From contig WIXG01000324.1 in assembly GCA_009869945.1 (NCBI GenBank), positions 24,530 through 88,529 on the forward strand: DNA of 64,000 nucleotides. Reading direction: 5' to 3'. The stretch comes from Mesaphorura yosii (Eukaryota > Arthropoda > Collembola > Poduromorpha > Tullbergiidae). A program made the translations under genes and the position numbers. Positions 38,862 to 57,214 of this stretch are shown here, piece after piece; within the stretch, counting starts at the first letter, position 1, and each line of letters begins with the position of its first letter. The notes under the pieces are model-generated. The model ran no database searches. It was given only the letters and a program-made list of their open reading frames with translations, and had not been told where the DNA came from.

Positions 38862-39197
38862 TTAACTAGACTGAGAGTTGCTTTGTGTTGTAGGTAGTTG
38901 CTTTTGAGTCTCTTCCTCCCAAGGCCTTGGGCCCCTCACATTTTCCCAAGTATCGATATCAACTTTCTTAAGCCGCTCAAATTCTGCCTCGATTGTAGTT
39001 TCCTCTTGTGGCTTCATCGTAATGCCTATAGCTTCCATATCTTCTCGTGATACAGACTGTTGAGCTCTATATTTATATCTGACTTTGGAAAATTCTGCAA
39101 GACCGAGGGCTCCTCCAAACACAAGTGCAAAGAAGGGAATGCCATATTTAAATGTTCTTGAACTTCGAAAACCGCTGATTCTATTAGCTTGGCTCAT
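38862..39197 (-). CDS. COX16: cytochrome c oxidase assembly protein COX16
   Basis: One exon, 111 residues. A short basic N-terminus precedes a single membrane helix (YGIPFFALVFGGALGLAEF), followed by the family motif KVRYKYR, an acidic stretch and the hallmark WENVRGPRPWEEE near the C-terminus. COX16 sits in the mitochondrial inner membrane and helps copper insertion and COX2 joining in complex IV assembly. Length and motifs match the family. The polar C-terminal tail is longer than some relatives. Confidence 0.93.
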   Translation of the reverse strand: MSQANRISGFRSSRTFKYGIPFFALVFGGALGLAEFSKVRYKYRAQQSVSREDMEAIGITMKPQEETTIEAEFERLKKVDIDTWENVRGPRPWEEETQKQLPTTQSNSQSS

Positions 39198-39840
39198 TAT
39201 GGGACTGTGTGCTTCAGGATCCCACCGAGATCCTCCACTGTGTAGAAATAGAAACCAGTACAGAGTACTTTAGAAATTGCCAGTACTCCTACCCTGATCA
39301 GTATTCGCCTTGGCGTGGTTGTATTTCGAAAATTCTGTTCCTGGCTGTTCACTTACCCAACTTATGCTCGTGACAGTGCGAACCGGTCTTCTGTTTCTAA
39401 TTCCAGCAGTATCTCTGGCTAACGCAATGGGTAACAGTAACAATCAGCCATTTGCTCGTAGACCATAGATGAATGAATCACTGATATGGAAGAATCAAAA
39501 CGCTCTAACAGTCTCTCAACACCGACCAAGTAGGAATCAACTAAAGACTTTGAAACAGACTTCTGCCGGCTAAATTCACGTGCGTGCGTATCGAAGATCC
39601 TGCATTCTTTGTTCAGGTCAGTTCAGTTTAACTTGACGATGTCGAGTCGACCTCACAATCAAAGAGGAAGAGGTCAGAAGCCAAAAGCAATCAAAAATTA
39701 ATCATTTATTCAAACATTTTATCGTAAAAAATCTTGCAATAGCACAGTGTAAGTTCATAAATGAAAGCAAAGTTAAAGCTACGGATGCTATAGACATTGT
39801 TTTTCTTGGTCGAGTAATTATGGAAAGTTATAAATGGAAA
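39198..39840. other. upstream of COX16 and 3' region of the RA-domain gene
   Basis: No coding exon recognised. COX16 promoter and the 3' untranslated end of the RA gene should lie here; both genes read leftward. Confidence 0.45.
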
Positions 39841-47457: not shown

Positions 47458-48088
47458 ATGAAGGCCGCCATTGTTGCCGTACTTGTAATTGCGAGCTTCT
47501 GGTCCGTCGATGCTGCAAGTAAGGATCATATCTCGTTCGGCCAAATTCTCTCGTCTTAATCACTTGTTCCTTTCCAGGCATCGGCCAGGAAGAAAATAAT
47601 GATATTGATGAGTACCTCGCGGGGTTTGTCCTTCATCGATACACGGGCAACGTGCGCGAGTACCTCCTGCTTAAGAAAGCGAAGGGTGACAAGGAATGGC
47701 AGCCGGCAAAGGGTCACATCGAAGACATCGACATTTCTGCCTTCGCCGCTGCCGTCAGAGAAGTCGAAGAGGAGACTGGCCTGACAAGACAAGACTACCA
47801 GACCTTTAACCACTATCTGATGCATCAAGTAAGTTCCATGCTTCATTTAATTTATTGCCGTCCATAACATGATTTCATGCCTTACAGTACGTTGCTGGTG
47901 ACAGTACTTCCAAGCAGGTTGAAATGTGGCCGGCTCGAGTCTTCGACTTCAACAAAGAGATTGTTCTCGGTTCCGAACATTCCGAGTACACATGGGTCAA
48001 CATCGACAGCGTCCTCGACTTGGTCAATAAGCGGTGGAGGAACAATGTGTTCCTGCCAGCTGAAGAATTTCTCAACTCCCTGCCGTGA
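47458..48088 (+). CDS. secreted Nudix hydrolase, Ap4A-hydrolase-like
   Basis: Three exons (47458-47518, 47578-47828, 47888-48088) give 170 residues. An 18-residue signal peptide (MKAAIVAVLVIASFW...) is encoded by exon 1, whose phase-1 junction (GCA A|) is the same as in the upstream paralogue. The Nudix core is intact: KGHIED, then REVEEETGL with all glutamates; there is one residue more than usual between the Gly and Arg of the motif, shared with the paralogue. Later motifs include VEMWPARV and SEYTWVNID. NUDT2-type enzymes split Ap4A into ATP and AMP. With a signal peptide it would act in the secretory path or outside the cell, perhaps on nucleotide signals or food nucleotides. Confidence 0.93.
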
Positions 48089-50620
48089 AGACTAAAATGA
48101 ATACATTAAAATCAATTTTGGCTTTCTCGTCAAGTGGTTGAGGTAGAAAATTACAGCAAATTGCCGAAATTCATTAAAGTTACCACAACAGAGCATCGAA
48201 TATAATTCCATTTTCCATACATTTCCCACACTTAGTGATCAGTGAGACTTGGCTGGCTAAGTTCAATAACTTTATTAGATTGGAATTAGATTGATGTGAA
48301 TTTTATCCATAATTTACGAGGTTCATACTTCTGTTTGCTCATTACACAGACATTATGTTCTACGTGTTCAGTTTATAATGTTTCTGATCGATAAAATACA
48401 AGGCTGTGCTGTTTATGGCTGCTATTGGGTTGCAAGCATAAAAGCGAGCAAGCCACATTTGCAAAACGCCACAGTGTTGACAAGCAAGATTATTTTATTG
48501 ACAAGCCAATTTATTCCATCTGTGCAAGTAAATTTTGCATGTTTTGCACTCTAACATCCTTTGTAACAAGAATGTGCAGTGCACATTGATATTTCTTCTC
48601 ACATCAGGACGATCGTGTTAGTTTCATGGACTACAATGACAACCGCAAATGATTTACGCTTCGCAAAGCGTGAGTTCCAATTCAGAATCCAAACAGGGAA
48701 AAGAAGTTAAGCGTTAAGCCATGAGTTAATGAGCTAGTAAAATGCTTCTTCTCCAGCCACAAACCCATAAGCCAAACAGTGCCGTGAAACGAAGCCCCGA
48801 GTCATGCACAAATACAAAACACAAGACTCAAGACTTGGCTTGGATAATGACAATGTCCCGTGTGTGGTGGTACGGATTTTGTGGTCTGCAGAAACAGAAA
48901 CAAATCCAGCTCGTGCATAATGAGGAGAATTCACTCTCTGTTTTATTTCAAGGTTACGTAATACGCAAACCAATAAACTCGACAACTTTTCTGCTTCTCC
49001 TGCCCTGCCCTGCGATGCGAAGATGACGATGACTAAACAACTTGGCAGAACTGGCTTAGCTTTAGTATCTAGCTTGGCTTGGCTTGAGCTTAGAACTAAC
49101 GCGTACCTGTTGTCGTTATGTATGTGTACACACTTGCATGTGCATCGTACGTGAGACTCGTCTCCACCTCGGTTAAACTCCAGTCTGGCTTAATTGAACG
49201 GTAGCTGGGCTGTGCTTATAACAGCGCTATAAAGGTGTGTTTCACAATTTGTAATTGTATAAAAGAGGGGCTGGACAGGATAACGATCGACAGGAAGGGA
49301 TCACAAATAACTTATTCATTCCATATTGTGCAACGGGAACCGAAACACATGGGATGCCAACAACTGACTTCCTGTGCTCACTCGTGTTAGACTATAAACA
49401 TCTACATCTACTTAAACGTGATACACGAAAATATTTTCAAGTAGTTCCATTTCGTTCCCTGCTTCATTTTTCAGCCTTGTTGCTGGATTTACGTTTCTTC
49501 AGTTCAGTGCGGTAACTGACATGGATTACAATCGATTCGCGACATTCTGAAGTGGATTTGGTAATCGTATTCATCTGTCCCTCGAACATTACAACATTAC
49601 CAGGTTAGTTTTCTTCGGAATGCGGTGTCCTTTCCTTCTTTCGTAACCCGGTTCAAGTTGAGTTTGCCTGCTTGCATTATTTCGTGTCTGTCATTCATTC
49701 TGAGACACCGTCCTTGAGACGAGTGTCTTGGCTGGCCGACTGCCTGGACTGGCAGACTCCTCCTCACCACACACACGGCAAGTTAGATGACCAAATTAAG
49801 TGGACACGCATTGCATTTGTTCGTGATTTCACTATAAATTACGACAAAGTTTCACCTGCAGTGTTTCACCGTCGTCGCCACGAGCGAGAAAGAGTGCAAC
49901 TCGCGTGCCTTATTTTGCCAGTGGTAGACAGAAGTAAGGGTTGGTAGAGCAAACCGCAAATTATCTGAGACACACTTCATAAATCATACGCTAAATTGAG
50001 TTAAGTGTCGTAAATTGACAGGACTAGCTGAAATTCAACATCAAAACAATTACAGCATATTCCGGCAGCCGGTAAGTAAAGTCATACAAAATGTGAATCA
50101 CTGCAGACTGCAATGGAATGGGAGACAAGTTAGGATCATTTCTATACATGGCATTCGCATGATCTCATGATTGCGTTAACTTGATTACTTGAAGCAAAAA
50201 GAGCGAAGTCACAACGATCATCAGCAGAATACGGAACGAGCTGGCAGTTTAAGAAAATAGCATTCTTTTTGTGTAGGGTAGGTGGTAGGTGTGATACAAC
50301 ATAAAAAGTCTGGAGAATTGACTCCAAGCAGTTGCAGCACCTTACGTGTCATGCACTATTAGAAGTTTCGAAGCCATTTTCTTCGTAATTGTGGCTTGTA
50401 GATAGCGAATTTAACCGCATTCGTCACTCGCAACTCGTGAGTCTGATAAATTGCACATACTTACGCTCATACCCGTCAATTCTTCAGGCAGTAAAGTGTT
50501 TGTCTGAATAATTAAATGTAAATTCGAAGAATTCTCACAAACAACGTAATTTTGTGTTTGGATCTCCCTTGCAGAGTTGCTGCGTGGAGCTTCCACTCCG
50601 TGTCCAGCGTCGTCGGCAGG
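48089..50620. other. 2.5 kb interval before the CFA synthase gene
   Basis: No exon recognised. Downstream of the second Nudix gene and upstream of the CFA gene; a CTTGCAG acceptor at about 50575 close to the CFA start could end a 5' untranslated intron. Confidence 0.45.
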
Positions 50621-52040
50621 ATGGATCTGGTATCAATATTCTACCCGCTAATCCTGAAGCTAGTGACGATCTTCAGAATTCTGAAACGATCTCTCTACAC
50701 AGTAGGGTACCCAATTGTAAAGCGATTAGTAGTGCAGCGTTTTGCAGCCGCCGGTCTTGAGCTCAACGGCAAGAAACCAGAAGACATTCAGATTCGACCT
50801 GGAAGCGAGAAAGAAGTGATACTGCGAATTGCGTGTGATGGCGAACTCGGACTTGGAGAAACGTATATGGCAGGTATGTCTGAGAATATTCAATCGCCAG
50901 GCGATGGCATGCCCTATGCACTCTGTTAATTCAATTCTTGCATGTCCAAGTCAAATCAATTTGAGGACTGACATTTTCTTCTTTCTTTATGTTAATTTTG
51001 CAGGGTTGTGGGAGTGTGATGCTTTGGACAAGCTCACGTTTCGGTTTCTCAAGAGCGAGCTATACAAAGAAGCAACTACACCCGTGAACCGATTTATTGC
51101 ATACCTCCTCCATGGACTTTTCAACATGCAGAGCCCACACAAAGCTTTTGAAGTGGGAAAACAGCACTACGATACGGGTGAGTTCTAATCTAATTTAATT
51201 AAGTATCGCATGTCTTTGATGAACTGAACTCCGAAATGTCTTCCTCTTGCAGGCAACGATCTTTTCGAGGCTTTCCTCGACCCGTCCATGAGCTACTCGT
51301 GTGGCTACTGGAAGAATGCCAAGACGTTAACCGAAGCACAGGAGAACAAGTTGGAACTTATTGCCAAAAAACTGAAGCTAAGTCCAGGAATGAAGGTGCT
51401 CGACATTGGGTGCGGTTGGGGTGGGCTGTCCAAGTATCTGGCGTCCAGATACGATGTAAAAGTGGTCGGAATCACCGTCGGGAAGGAAGGTGCTGAGTAC
51501 GCGCGCAAAAGGTGCGAAGGATATCCTGTCGATATTCGCGTGATGGATTACAGAGATCTGAATGAGACATTTGACCGAATCGTGAGCGTCGGGATGTTTG
51601 AGCACGTGGGCTCCCGCAATTATCAGACATTCTTCAAAGTGGTGAGGAGGTGTTTGGCCGAGGACGGCCTATTCCTCCTTCACACAATTGGCGTCTGTCA
51701 CCCTCGCATGGACCGGATGGACGAGTGGAGTCTGAAGTACATTTTTACAAATGGCGAACTTCCTTACTACACAACGCTATTCAAATCAACTGAGGATCTC
51801 TTCGTAATTGAAGACTGGCACAATTTCGGCCACGATTATTCCAAAACGTTGATGGCCTGGGCAGACAATTTTACCAAAGCATGGCCTGACCTTGCTCTTA
51901 AATATGGTGAACGCTTCTACCGAATGTGGTACTTTTACTTGGTGACGTCAGCTGGTGCTTTTGAGTCTAGGAAATTAAACCTGTGGCAAATAGTTATGAC
52001 TAAAGACGGACTGCTAGGTGGCTATGAGTCTGTCCGTTAA
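50621..52040 (+). CDS. cyclopropane-fatty-acyl-phospholipid synthase
   Basis: Three exons (50621-50873, 51004-51177, 51253-52040), both introns phase 1, give 404 residues (E. coli Cfa has 382). The enzyme adds a methylene group from S-adenosylmethionine across the double bond of unsaturated acyl chains in phospholipids. The N-terminal lipid-binding part ends LGLGETYMAGLWECDALD; the core has LFNMQS, the GKQHYDTGNDLF hinge, YSCGYW, the SAM motif VLDIGCGWGG at 191-200, and FEHVG, HTIG and EDWHNFG. All five bicarbonate-site residues of the E. coli enzyme have counterparts: C159, E259, H286, I288 and Y338. The first 35 residues are hydrophobic and basic, likely membrane-associating. Similarity is to bacterial Cfa rather than plant fusions, so an origin by gene transfer is likely, with introns gained since. 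No frameshift or stop. Confidence 0.96.
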
Positions 52041-52726
52041 ATTAACTAAATGATAAAGGAACTTATGTGTTCATAAAATGCCTTTCAGGATTCGTGAAGT
52101 CGAAATATGGCAATTGTTCTGAAAGCTGGATTAGAATATGTGCCGTGCGGCTCACTTTTAACAACACTAATCACTAACTGCAGTGCAATATTTAATGCAA
52201 ACCTGCTGTTACCGTCGTAATAATAAATTAGTAATTAGATCTGTACCAAGTATAACTTCATTAACTATTCGTGTTAGCTTGTTGTAGCTGCTCTGGTTTT
52301 GACTAGACGATTTTTATGTTTTCGAACACTCCCATAAAGCTGTACTATTGATGTGATAATTTATCCTGTTGACTTTGTTGATGATGATTATCTCACGCGC
52401 ATCAAGTATTTGCATTCCATGATGCCTTTAAATGATACCTTCATTTAGCATAGAAGAAGCGGTGCAACTACGATTAGCTAAGCTAAGAGCTGTAATATTT
52501 TTAAATAAAGATTTTTGTAATTGTAAAAGCATCAGGGTTATAACTTGTTCTCTTTATTCAATGTTGTAACAACGTAATGGCAACGAACGCGAAATTACGG
52601 ACTTACGCAGATTACGATTTTTGAGTTCTATTCTTGTATTCTACTATCTTTTGAAGGACTACATGAGGCATGAAGTTTTCTCAACGAAAATGACTGAATG
52701 CTTGCATATTGATTTTAAGTTCAAGT
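52041..52726. other. convergent 3' region, no gene seen
   Basis: Between the CFA synthase stop and the IF1 stop. An AATAAAG signal near 52504 probably serves the CFA transcript. No exon seen. Confidence 0.45.
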
Positions 52727-53256: not shown

Positions 53257-53917
53257 CTTAATTAGTTCAGGCTTTCTTCTTGACGATTAACACTGAAATT
53301 GATTGCTCTCTTCTCCCGTGTTTAAGCGATTTTCCGAATATTTTGATAGCAATAATAAGTCTGTATATCGTGCGGTTCGTCACGTGCGCTCTTTTTCGGG
53401 AAAACCTGCGGTAGAGATGAATTTATATTGCAGCTGCAACTCTTTTCCAGCGAATTCGTTGTTACTTCGTTTGCTTTATGTTATAGCTTTCTTATGTTTG
53501 TATTTGTTTTTACTGTTTGGGGCCACCACTTATAAAGCTTTTACGTTCGTGTCGTTCGCTTATCTGACAGTCGACGGTGATAAGCGATGACACTTAATAA
53601 TGCGACTGAGACGATACAACGAACGACGAAATTCTGAGAACTGCTGATTTAACAGACGCCTAATGGAAGTGACCGGTAAGGATCAAGCGATAATTAATCC
53701 TGTCTTTCCTGCCAACAAAAGCTAATATTGTGATTGCGACACATTGACTACATTGCAGGATTTGGAATTCTGCAGTAACACCGTCCTAAAATGTAGATCC
53801 TCATGCCGCTTCCTCCGCCCACCAACAACTCGGGTCCCTGTTAGATGGTACTAGTTGACGTGGTTGGATAAAGTTACGAACCTTGACCTTGCCGGCAGTA
53901 TCCCGAAAACGCCGCCG
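53257..53917. promoter_or_regulatory. divergent intergenic region, IF1 / ZAD-forkhead gene
   Basis: 661 bases between two outward-facing start codons; promoter content inferred from position only. An open frame at 53303-53590 has no recognisable domain. Confidence 0.35.
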
Positions 53918-56900
53918 ATGGACCAATCACGCCAACAAACCCTTGCGTCCCTGGGAAGAACTTACTATCACCCCAGCAAGTGTCTCAACTGCGACGCTCC
54001 TGTGACCTTGCTCCAGCATCTACTGGATCCATCGGCGAAAATGAGCACAGAGTACTATGTGGAAGTGCTATCATACATCTTCGGACTGAAACATACCGAC
54101 ACTGGGACTCTCCTACTTCGGTTGCTCAACATAAATGAGTACACCTTCTGCAAGCCATGCACTCAGCTTTTAGCTGCGATACGGACAATTCGGAAAAAAT
54201 TTGTTCACCAGACCAAAAAGAATTCATATTTATATCATGCAGTCGTAAATAATCCCAAAAAGACAACTGAGCCCGCAACCAACGTCGCAGCAAAGTTAGC
54301 TAACATTATGTACCAGTGCGAAAAAACTGTGCAGAACAACACTCAATCGCTAACGCAAAATCAAAAGACTACTGGAAATCTAGTGCAGCCAGTCCACGTC
54401 GTAATTGATGACGAGCTAGAAATTATTGGTCAAAGCAAGTCGGTGGTATTGAAGACTACACCTTTGTCTTCCCGATCCACTCTTGATCTCACACAAAATA
54501 CTGCAACTTTAAGGTTGGCGCTTGTAAAAATTGAATAATATAACTGGGAGATAGGAAGTTATAATACTTTTCACTTTAGCAGTGTGCCAGCTTCGTTTTC
54601 CGAATTGCCAAAGACAGTAGATGACATAATGATTCAGGTTAACAGAGATGATCAAGTAAGGGCAATCTCGTCATCTCCTGGCCCAAATGTTTTATGTGTT
54701 AATTGTAACGTTGACGTGCTATTGACGATGTAGGGTCAGGGAGGACAAAAGTATTCGGTCATGCAAGTGATACTGCAGGCATTGGGAACTTCTTCCACGG
54801 GCATGCTTAGCATCAAAGGAATCCAGCACCATATTGCGAAGAATTATCCATGGTATGATGCTGGTCGGAAAGAATGGCATGTAAGAATTCATACTCAAGT
54901 TTCGACTAAATTTTTCCGACTAGTCATGGAATTCTGACAGACTATTTTCTTGTTCTCTTCACAGGACGCACTTTTAGCCATGTTACAGAGATCTGAATAC
55001 TTCGCCGAAGTGCGCCCGAACCCCGCTGATTGTGGTACAACTTTTTGGAAAATCAATCCTAAGTTTGATATGTACACGTTGGTTCAAGAGACGTTTCGGA
55101 AGCAAGCAAGCAATCCTGTGCCGCCTGCGCGAACAATTCTAAAATCAGTGCCAGTACCTAATGTGTTAGCCAAAGTGAACCTGAATGTGGTCACAACCGA
55201 TGACGCCAGTTCATATCCAAAGAGTGATCTTGTCATTACGTCAGTAACTTCCATGGCCGATACTCCTAAAGGTGCGTCGCCTCAACCAAATCCAGTTGTA
55301 GTTGAGTTTGGCACGACTGCCCCTTTGTCTAAGTCAATTTCTACAGAGAAGGAGGCAAAGCGGACCACTGACCGAACACATGACGAATCTAATGAGCATT
55401 CCTCTAAAATAAGACGATTGAATGAGGATCCGAGTGCAAGTTCGCCAACGCCAATCGAAGTAGTACTTCCTGATACTCCATCGCCATCAGGTGAATCTCG
55501 CTCAACTCACTCAACAGATGCGTTCCTTAACCAAAAGCCGGAAACTGAAAAACAGAAAAGTAGATCTATGAACCAGAAAGAGAAAGAGGAGACGAAAGTG
55601 AAGGGCGATGATAATGACGTGTGGGAACGACTCAGCTCACCCGACTTCGAAATAATATCGTCTGATGATGATATTTCTGGTTGTGGCAGCGACAAAAACG
55701 ACGCTGGTGAACTGAAACGTTCAGGGAAAAACCCGAAGGCAGTCGCAAAAATAAGTGCATGCAGTACATCCGTAACTACAAGTGCAAATGACATGCAAAC
55801 GAGTTGTAAATATCAAGACATGGGAGACAACCTCGAGGTGATATCTTCGGACGAAGAGATTTTGAGCTCAGACATAGAGACAAAATTCGAGCCGGTTTCA
55901 TACAATGCTCAACATCTTCAAGTGAATTCCGAAAACACTATACCATCGAAGGTACCTAATTCAATGAGCGGTGCGTTGGCCAGTGTAGTGAAATCACATC
56001 AGAAGGATTCTCTTTTGGATGAAAAATCAGAAACACCTGAAGTAGTTCCCGACCTCTTGGAGGAAGCCATGCCAAAAATTAAGCCCATTTCTGACGAGGC
56101 AAAGCCAGAAGGAAAAAGTCGATGCATGATTTTGTTGCATGATTCTGCCCCGGAAACCTCGAGTTCAACTTCGATTTCGATAAGAAATGATTTATTTGAA
56201 GCACAACCAAGTACGAGTGCATCAGTGTTCTTAGGTTCCATGGTCAATTTGACTAGGTCAGCATCGGACCAGGTCGAATTAACCGAATTACTCGAACCCC
56301 ACCTGCAGCTACCTCAGCGTCAGCGTGGCAAGCGCGTCAGGGTCAGGGCCTTGGCGTCAGAAGAGCAAATAGTTCCAGGAAGCAAGAACAAGATCATGGT
56401 AAATACTCCGAAAGGGCTCCAGTCACTCGAGACTGTTGTCAGTGCGTTGATCAGCGTGATTCGAGAACAGTTCCGACTGATTAATGAAGACTTGAATGCA
56501 CTGCAAGCCAAATGCTTCTTTATCAACACACATCAAATCGTTTCCGTTAATCTGAAACACAGGGTGAAAAAGGAAAGTTGGTCATCCTTTGTCGACATCT
56601 TGAAGATCACGAAAAATGTGGCCGACACTGTGCAGCGTACGTTTCTGATGCTCGACCAAACGATGATAAAAATTCGGATTTTAGCACCACAAAGGCTTAA
56701 ACTGGACGACGAGGCCCCTGATTACCGGCCCCATACAAATATCACAAATCTCCCCGTCGATACTCTTGCAAAATACTTCAAGATTGCACTTCAAGCCGAA
56801 GAGTTCGTTAAATCGGCAGATTACAAGGATTTCCGCATTGTGTTGAAGATAATAAAGTACAAAGTCATTAGAATAGTGAAGCACTTTACGCCAAAAGACA

Positions 56901-57214
56901 ACGAGAACGCTCAGGGAAATGTTAACGACTCATATTTTTATAACATTTGCAATTACCTGAGAACTCAAGAGAATGAGAAGTCAGTTCTGCCAGAAGTTGG
57001 TGGAAACGACCCTGACTTGGAAGATTGGTCTGTGGAGAAAGCTATCCGTCTTTGGGACCAAGTAAAGTTGTTCAAGCACCAAATCAACGTCAACATTGTG
57101 AATTTGGACCACAGCGTGCATGGAATTGCTGGATTCGAGAAACAGTTGTCAAAGATCTGCATTGGAGCGAAGAGAAGAAGGGAGCAACAGCAACTTCAGT
57201 CCACGTCCAATTAA
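53918..57214 (+). CDS. ZAD-like zinc module plus divergent forkhead domain protein
   Basis: Four exons (53918-54513, 54580-54655, 54734-54880, 54965-57214) give 1022 residues. Near the N-terminus C22-x2-C25 and C78-x2-C81 flank a helical stretch, the layout of arthropod zinc-finger-associated (ZAD) dimerisation domains. Residues 231-308 read as a winged helix of forkhead type: KYSVMQVILQAL, MLSIKGIQHHIAKNYPWY, EWHDALLAML, SEYFAEV and FWKINPKFD follow the forkhead consensus, though the recognition helix is altered (no N-S-I-R-H). A long acidic Ser-rich region contains hydrophobic-acidic motifs such as VVIDDELEII (161-170), FEIISSDDD and LEVISSDEE, which resemble SUMO-interacting motifs. The last 230 residues are a predicted helical domain ending in a KRRREQQQ basic tail. 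A nuclear DNA-binding regulator is inferred; I know no orthologue. Confidence 0.8.

Follow-up and report, generated by a model that had tools for sequence, protein, structure and literature searches.

A predicted cyclopropane fatty acid synthase gene with introns, member of an apparently old five-copy family in a probable non-insect arthropod genome

Introduction

Cyclopropane fatty acid (CFA) synthases of the Escherichia coli type are homodimers, which cyclopropanate the acyl chains of phospholipids, and CFA-like proteins are, we presume, annotated in GenBank for invertebrates other than the one described here. Residues E239, H266 and Y317 of the E. coli enzyme were named as contacts of a bound bicarbonate, and removal of bicarbonate or mutation of its ligands lowers the activity (PMC11387697; this and all other PMC articles are cited for the accessible part of their text). 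That animals can acquire and keep CFA genes is known from ants (PMC13320244) and nematodes (PMC10876521).

Acyl-type cyclopropane lipids were reported in arthropods, namely in a springtail (sarekensane) and in the millipede Graphidostreptus, where they were found in the springtail cuticle and in millipede females (PMC10825826; see also PMC11321324). The accessible main text of the sarekensane paper (PMC10825826) does not contain the word 'synthase'. Cyclopropanes of the cuticle can be mistaken for alkenes and have to be derivatised (PMC10825826). In soil food-web work cy17:0 and cy19:0 are listed as absolute bacterial biomarkers, synthesized by prokaryotes only (PMC5696395). Among the matches listed from the open-access literature none described a CFA synthase from an arthropod outside the insects, and 'cyclopropane' was not found in the accessible main texts of PMC13342648, PMC4358723, PMC5490193, PMC13389597 and PMC5531438.

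Structure and surroundings of the gene

The DNA analysed here (the window) is a stretch of 64,000 nucleotides on contig C324, which accounts for 88.5 kb of a 93-Mb assembly. The features of the window to which the text refers are the following.

38865–39269: COX16 frame (Pfam)
47523–47864: NUDIX frame (Pfam)
50072–50574, + strand: candidate 5'UTR intron, GTAAGT ... TTGCAG, picked by eye
50621–50873, + strand: exon 1, residues 1–84 and base 1 of codon 85; encodes the hydrophobic N-terminal segment and the first part of the lipid-binding domain
50874–51003, + strand: intron 1, 130 bases, GTATGT...TTTTGCAG, phase 1
51004–51177, + strand: exon 2, from the remainder of codon 85 to base 1 of codon 143
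51178–51252, + strand: intron 2, 75 bases, GTGAGT...TCTTGCAG, phase 1
51253–52040, + strand: exon 3, from the remainder of codon 143 to the stop codon; bulk of the catalytic SAM-methyltransferase domain with C159, E259, H286, I288 and Y338
52504–52509, + strand: AATAAA, putative polyadenylation signal about 460 bases past the stop codon
52907–53233: IATP (mitochondrial ATPase inhibitor) frame (Pfam, 24.7 bits, slightly below the cut-off of 25), on the other side of the Cfa gene from NUDIX

Spliced together, the three exons encode a protein of 404 residues in an unbroken frame, which ends with the TAA stop codon at 52038–52040. Both introns have GT-AG borders, and reading on in frame from exon 1 or exon 2 leads to a stop codon inside the adjoining intron (for exon 2 at 51186–51188). 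The two phase-1 introns, which the original prediction had placed in the gene, are confirmed as predictions from the DNA sequence. Intron 2 splits the motif HYDTGNDLF after HYDT, inside the G codon.

The gene had also been described as lying among ordinary animal genes, and its surroundings bear this out. Eight of the ten window frames tested matched a Pfam family (NUDIX, IATP, gamma-glutamyl transpeptidase, ubiquitin-conjugating enzyme, SNF symporter, RRM, sugar transporter and COX16), the other two matched none. The COX16, ubiquitin-conjugating enzyme and RRM splicing-type frames are typical of eukaryotes, some of the other matched families are also bacterial, and eukaryote-typical matches were found on both sides of the Cfa gene on the same contig. 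The Rfam search gave no family at gathering score within the window. Two long frames of the + strand (53855–54538 and 54938–57214) had no Pfam match; the second one encodes 758 amino acids with acidic and serine-rich stretches, and its product is perhaps a nuclear protein.

The protein and its predicted active site

Against the NCBIfam model of the E. coli-type Cfa (NF008686, curated cut-off 400 bits) the window protein scored 534.9 bits (E=1.1e-160), and the match covered positions 16–382 of the 383 in the profile, which agrees with the earlier claim of a complete Cfa-type gene. The Pfam CMAS family (E=4.3e-90) and the E. coli Cfa structure 6bqc (E=1.2e-119) also matched; judged from their scores, the Pfam, NCBIfam and PDB matches are not due to chance. 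In the alignment the sequence VLDIGCGWGG, which we take to be the SAM-binding motif, is kept, and C159, E259, H286, I288 and Y338 align with C139, E239, H266, I268 and Y317 of E. coli, of which C139 and I268 are, on our assumption, the fourth and fifth bicarbonate-site residues. The SAM motif and the five residues are thus all present in the protein, as originally noted.

The N-terminus of the protein is hydrophobic. The hydropathy maxima of a 19-residue N-terminal segment were 2.01, 1.31, 1.01, 1.17 and 0.96 in the five copies of the gene described in the next section (the starts of all copies except the window gene are uncertain), compared with a median of 0.14 in the 98 prokaryotic rows that had enough residues in this region, with the reservation that the bacterial starts were placed at the nearest Met, which may mask extensions. 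Only two of the 98 rows reached 0.96, the Leptolyngbya protein L109 (1.54) and L079 (0.98), so these two match some of the animal copies in N-terminal hydrophobicity. The hydrophobic segment probably gives the enzyme a hold on the membrane. The Leptolyngbya protein also shares the long N-terminus of the window protein. In its gene, which is carried by plasmid AP017309.1, the likeness to the window protein starts 17 codons upstream of the annotated start, and this start may have been set too late.

A family of five copies

The assembly contains five near-full-length CMAS genes: the window gene on C324 and four paralogs dispersed on contigs C281, C13, C18 and C502, by which we denote them. The products of C281, C13 and C18 show 51%, 59% and 56% identity with the window protein, respectively. 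The fifth gene (L019) is more diverged:

G000:C502:37351–38526: diverged fifth CMAS gene, product about 32–38% identical to the window protein, SAM motif recognisable

Weaker CMAS matches were found on C172 and C772, slightly above the 27-bit cut-off, and on C392, below it; these look like other methyltransferases. The five bicarbonate-site residues are complete in the window protein, C281, C13 and C18. C502 has kept C and E, and has Q, S and M in the place of H, I and Y. Because of these replacements we infer a changed reaction for C502, which is probably a lipid methyltransferase.

The introns of the four paralogs were taken from spliced alignment; a 36-base 'intron' proposed in this way for C281 was dropped and is treated as an insertion of eight residues. 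The window gene, C281 and C502 have two introns each, C13 has five and C18 six, altogether 17 introns at 13 positions, 11 of which are private to one copy. The site of intron 1 of the window gene has no exact counterpart in the paralogs, the closest intron being four alignment columns off in C13. The intron after residue 142 of the window protein is found, in phase 1 and in the same codon, in the window gene, C281, C13 and C18. Such a four-way match cannot be due to chance, therefore at least one intron is older than the duplications that gave rise to these four copies. C18 and C502 have in common an intron after residue 210, in phase 0. If the two introns of C502 are compared with the 12 positions of the other copies, and about 1200 positions are possible, one coincidence by chance has, by our own arithmetic, a likelihood near 2%. 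The original prediction of a single transferred gene did not hold up, since five copies were found, four or five of them with shared introns.

Between the window gene and C13 the differences at codon positions 1, 2 and 3 were 0.336, 0.247 and 0.614, respectively. The same order (position 3 > 1 > 2) was seen in all six pairs of the four close copies, which indicates that these copies have been under purifying selection.

The host genome

We took the cuticle-domain, collagen, SL1, telomere and odorant-receptor families as markers of the respective animal groups. The Chitin_bind_4 cuticle domain had 66 matches in the assembly. Neither the N-terminal domain of nematode cuticle collagens nor SL1 had a match in the assembly, and a nematode host was rejected on these grounds, with the qualification that both markers were silent also in the controls, so that their absence is weak and not a proof. 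The same applies to an insect host, which was rejected because no insect odorant receptor was found in the assembly, this family being silent in the controls, too. Among single-domain arginine kinase chains 4bg4, which we take to be a shrimp protein, was the best match (613 bits), and the two-domain 4rf6 came first by total score. Mitochondrial cox1 had no match in the assembly. A tardigrade host of the Hypsibius type was also rejected, as the assembly contained no exact threefold GATGGGTTTT, the tardigrade telomere repeat given in PMC5531438. The host is probably a non-insect arthropod, perhaps a pancrustacean. Another contig carries a diverged arginine-kinase-like gene (L118; G000:C299, about 28.7–30.6 kb), upstream of which there is an ankyrin-repeat-like frame (NGRSALHYAA...GADPNVKD); the two are possibly fused.

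Relationship to prokaryotic Cfa proteins

The scan of prokaryotic genomes used two exact peptide patterns and was thus biased towards similar sequences; the best match was 54% identical to the window protein (among the best 80 of 325 confirmed relatives). The best prokaryotic row for C13 was L039, with 55.5%. Of 398 genomes sampled from the Pseudomonadota, the phylum of the Gallionellaceae MAG G001, 333 contained matches, none of those listed being more than 53% identical; among the matches listed, 38 places in 36 genomes belonged to the strong class that resembles E. coli Cfa (E ≤ 3.5e-109). The plasmid collection yielded 286 matching records, all less than 60% identical to the window protein. 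Identity among the copies (51–59%) is of much the same order as their identity to the closest bacterial proteins (up to 54%).

The original prediction had proposed placing the 404-residue protein in a tree. Our careful tree consisted of 79 rows, the four close copies and 75 prokaryotic proteins; not included were 31 rows whose organism names pointed to probable close relationship, L122, which is a duplicate, and C502 with its long branch. In this tree the window protein, C281, C13 and C18 formed a single clade (100/100) with a stem length of 0.59, and this clade was not nested inside any supported bacterial group. In its prokaryotic part the proposed tree thus sets the copies apart from the bacteria with full support, but it offers no supported bacterial sister, and because the clade is not nested among bacteria, the tree is silent on the direction of a transfer. 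All five copies, including C502, grouped with a support of 83 in a quick tree of 61 rows, and with 89/74 against 26 prokaryotic rows in a careful tree of 31 rows, where the grouping was not starred. The branch of C502 was very long (3.41). Its kinship with the other four copies appears likely.

A viral route was considered and rejected. Of the 104 pattern matches in viral contigs none was a relative. Only five of 50,697 phage records matched, all with less than 60% identity; one of these, H63, was 54.7% identical over residues 204–393 only. A cyanobacterial donor was not retained either, as the Leptolyngbya protein has more in common with proteobacterial proteins (57.7% identity with Halomonas) than with the window protein (46.0%).

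Discussion

We regard it as probable that the window contains a working nuclear CFA synthase gene, that its family entered the lineage once and long ago, and that the arthropod makes cyclopropane lipids of its own. Several parts of our scheme are inferred, namely the activity of the enzyme, its attachment to the membrane, when and in which direction the transfer took place, the relationship of C502 to the other copies and the lipids that are made. By homology, the window enzyme would transfer a methyl group from SAM to an acyl chain, at a cis double bond; E259, H286 and Y338 would bind the bicarbonate that takes up a proton, whereupon the three-membered ring would close. The hydrophobic N-terminal segment would anchor the enzyme on the membrane. 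The family would have been acquired most likely from bacteria, and introns would then have been gained and copies duplicated; four copies would have retained the cyclopropane-forming site, and C502, having lost most of it, would have become a different lipid methyltransferase. A role in membrane stress tolerance carried over from bacteria can be suggested by analogy, and a use in cuticular, storage or signalling lipids is equally possible.

The observations are best accounted for by one ancient entry, after which introns were gained and the gene was duplicated. Bacterial ancestry with later acquisition of introns is a fitting sequence of events because bacteria, to our knowledge, have no spliceosomal introns. 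The earlier idea of gene transfer and intron gain therefore survives in so far as a bacterial-type protein is encoded with predicted introns, but not as the arrival of a single new gene. If a transfer was the origin, it appears to be old. The bacterial type of the protein might suggest contamination or a recent symbiont insertion, but the introns, the eukaryote-typical neighbours on the same contig, the four further intron-bearing copies and the best prokaryotic genome match of just 54% among the matches listed reduce this explanation to near insignificance. That the gene is a decaying pseudogene without a product is also very improbable, given the complete frame, the canonical splice sites, the conserved catalytic residues and the excess of third-position differences in all six pairs of the close copies. 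A more serious contender is an old gene inherited vertically in animals or eukaryotes and lost in the well-studied animals, which would be compatible with the same enzyme function. It could account for the clade's long stem and its distance from all prokaryotic rows, and for the dispersed copies with their many introns; CFA synthases were reported in plants, fungi and Leishmania (PMC13320244), and the tree of the nematode enzyme FCMT-1 had ten non-nematode animal hits, which implies homologues in other animals (PMC10876521). Against it, the closest sequences are bacterial (up to 54%), although this figure comes from prokaryotic collections only and is weak either way, and separate transfers were argued for ants (PMC13320244) and nematodes (PMC10876521). 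On balance we consider vertical inheritance unlikely, while giving it appreciable weight.

The reaction itself could also be different. The window enzyme might be a fatty-acid C-methyltransferase like FCMT-1, which adds the methyl group without closing the ring and serves the synthesis of branched signalling or cuticular lipids. FCMT-1, which is of CFA descent and belongs to an animal, provides a precedent, cyclopropane lipids are said not to be made by C. elegans (PMC10876521), and the fifth copy, C502, has lost three of the bicarbonate-site residues (H, I and Y). However, the window protein scores as an E. coli-type Cfa, it has the five bicarbonate-site residues intact, as have three of its paralogs, and loss of bicarbonate or mutation of its ligands cuts the activity of CFA synthase (PMC11387697). 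For the window enzyme we find C-methylation improbable, for C502 it is the favoured reading. As a whole, the more detailed picture, in which a non-insect arthropod lineage has four functioning CFA synthases derived from bacteria, makes with them its own cyclopropane lipids for membranes or a water-proofing cuticle, and has turned a fifth copy into a new lipid C-methyltransferase, is a tentative proposal, about which we have more doubt than confidence.

An arthropod that carries four intact CFA synthase genes makes it possible to test the assumption that cy17:0 and cy19:0 are made only by prokaryotes. If the animal does synthesize them, these acids are unsafe as indicators of feeding on bacteria, and one source of the cyclopropane hydrocarbons of arthropods is identified. 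A gene family of this sort is a candidate source of the springtail and millipede cyclopropane lipids, and the cyclopropane lipids of small arthropods may have sources besides bacteria. The shared intron implies that a bacterial-type membrane enzyme was already established in the genome when the family began to expand, and one member of the family has apparently switched its reaction.

It remains to compare the gene with the described systems. It resembles E. coli Cfa in the two-domain layout, the SAM motif, the five bicarbonate-site residues and about 50% identity, and differs from it in its introns, its five-copy family, its longer hydrophobic N-terminus and its animal host. FCMT-1 (F13D12.9 of C. 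elegans) is likewise an animal gene of CFA descent, for which an ancient bacterial transfer was proposed, but it is needed for beta-methyl and not for cyclopropyl fatty acids (PMC10876521; compared here by description only), and the present assembly matched neither of the two nematode markers. By analogy, FCMT-1 may serve as a precedent of the kind of change suggested for C502. The cfa genes of Formica and Iberoformica are similar in belonging to arthropods and in being present in several copies, some of them full-length and expressed (PMC13320244). They were, however, estimated to be about 33 million years old and traced to Sodalis-like enterobacteria, with transfers specific to ant clades, and are about 75% identical to bacterial genes at the CDS level (PMC13320244), compared with at most 54% at the protein level here; their hosts are insects, whereas this assembly had no odorant-receptor match, a weak absence. 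Within the literature searched, the apparent novelty lies in a family of several intron-bearing copies, four of them with unaltered cyclopropane-forming residues, whose host probably belongs neither to the insects nor to the nematodes.
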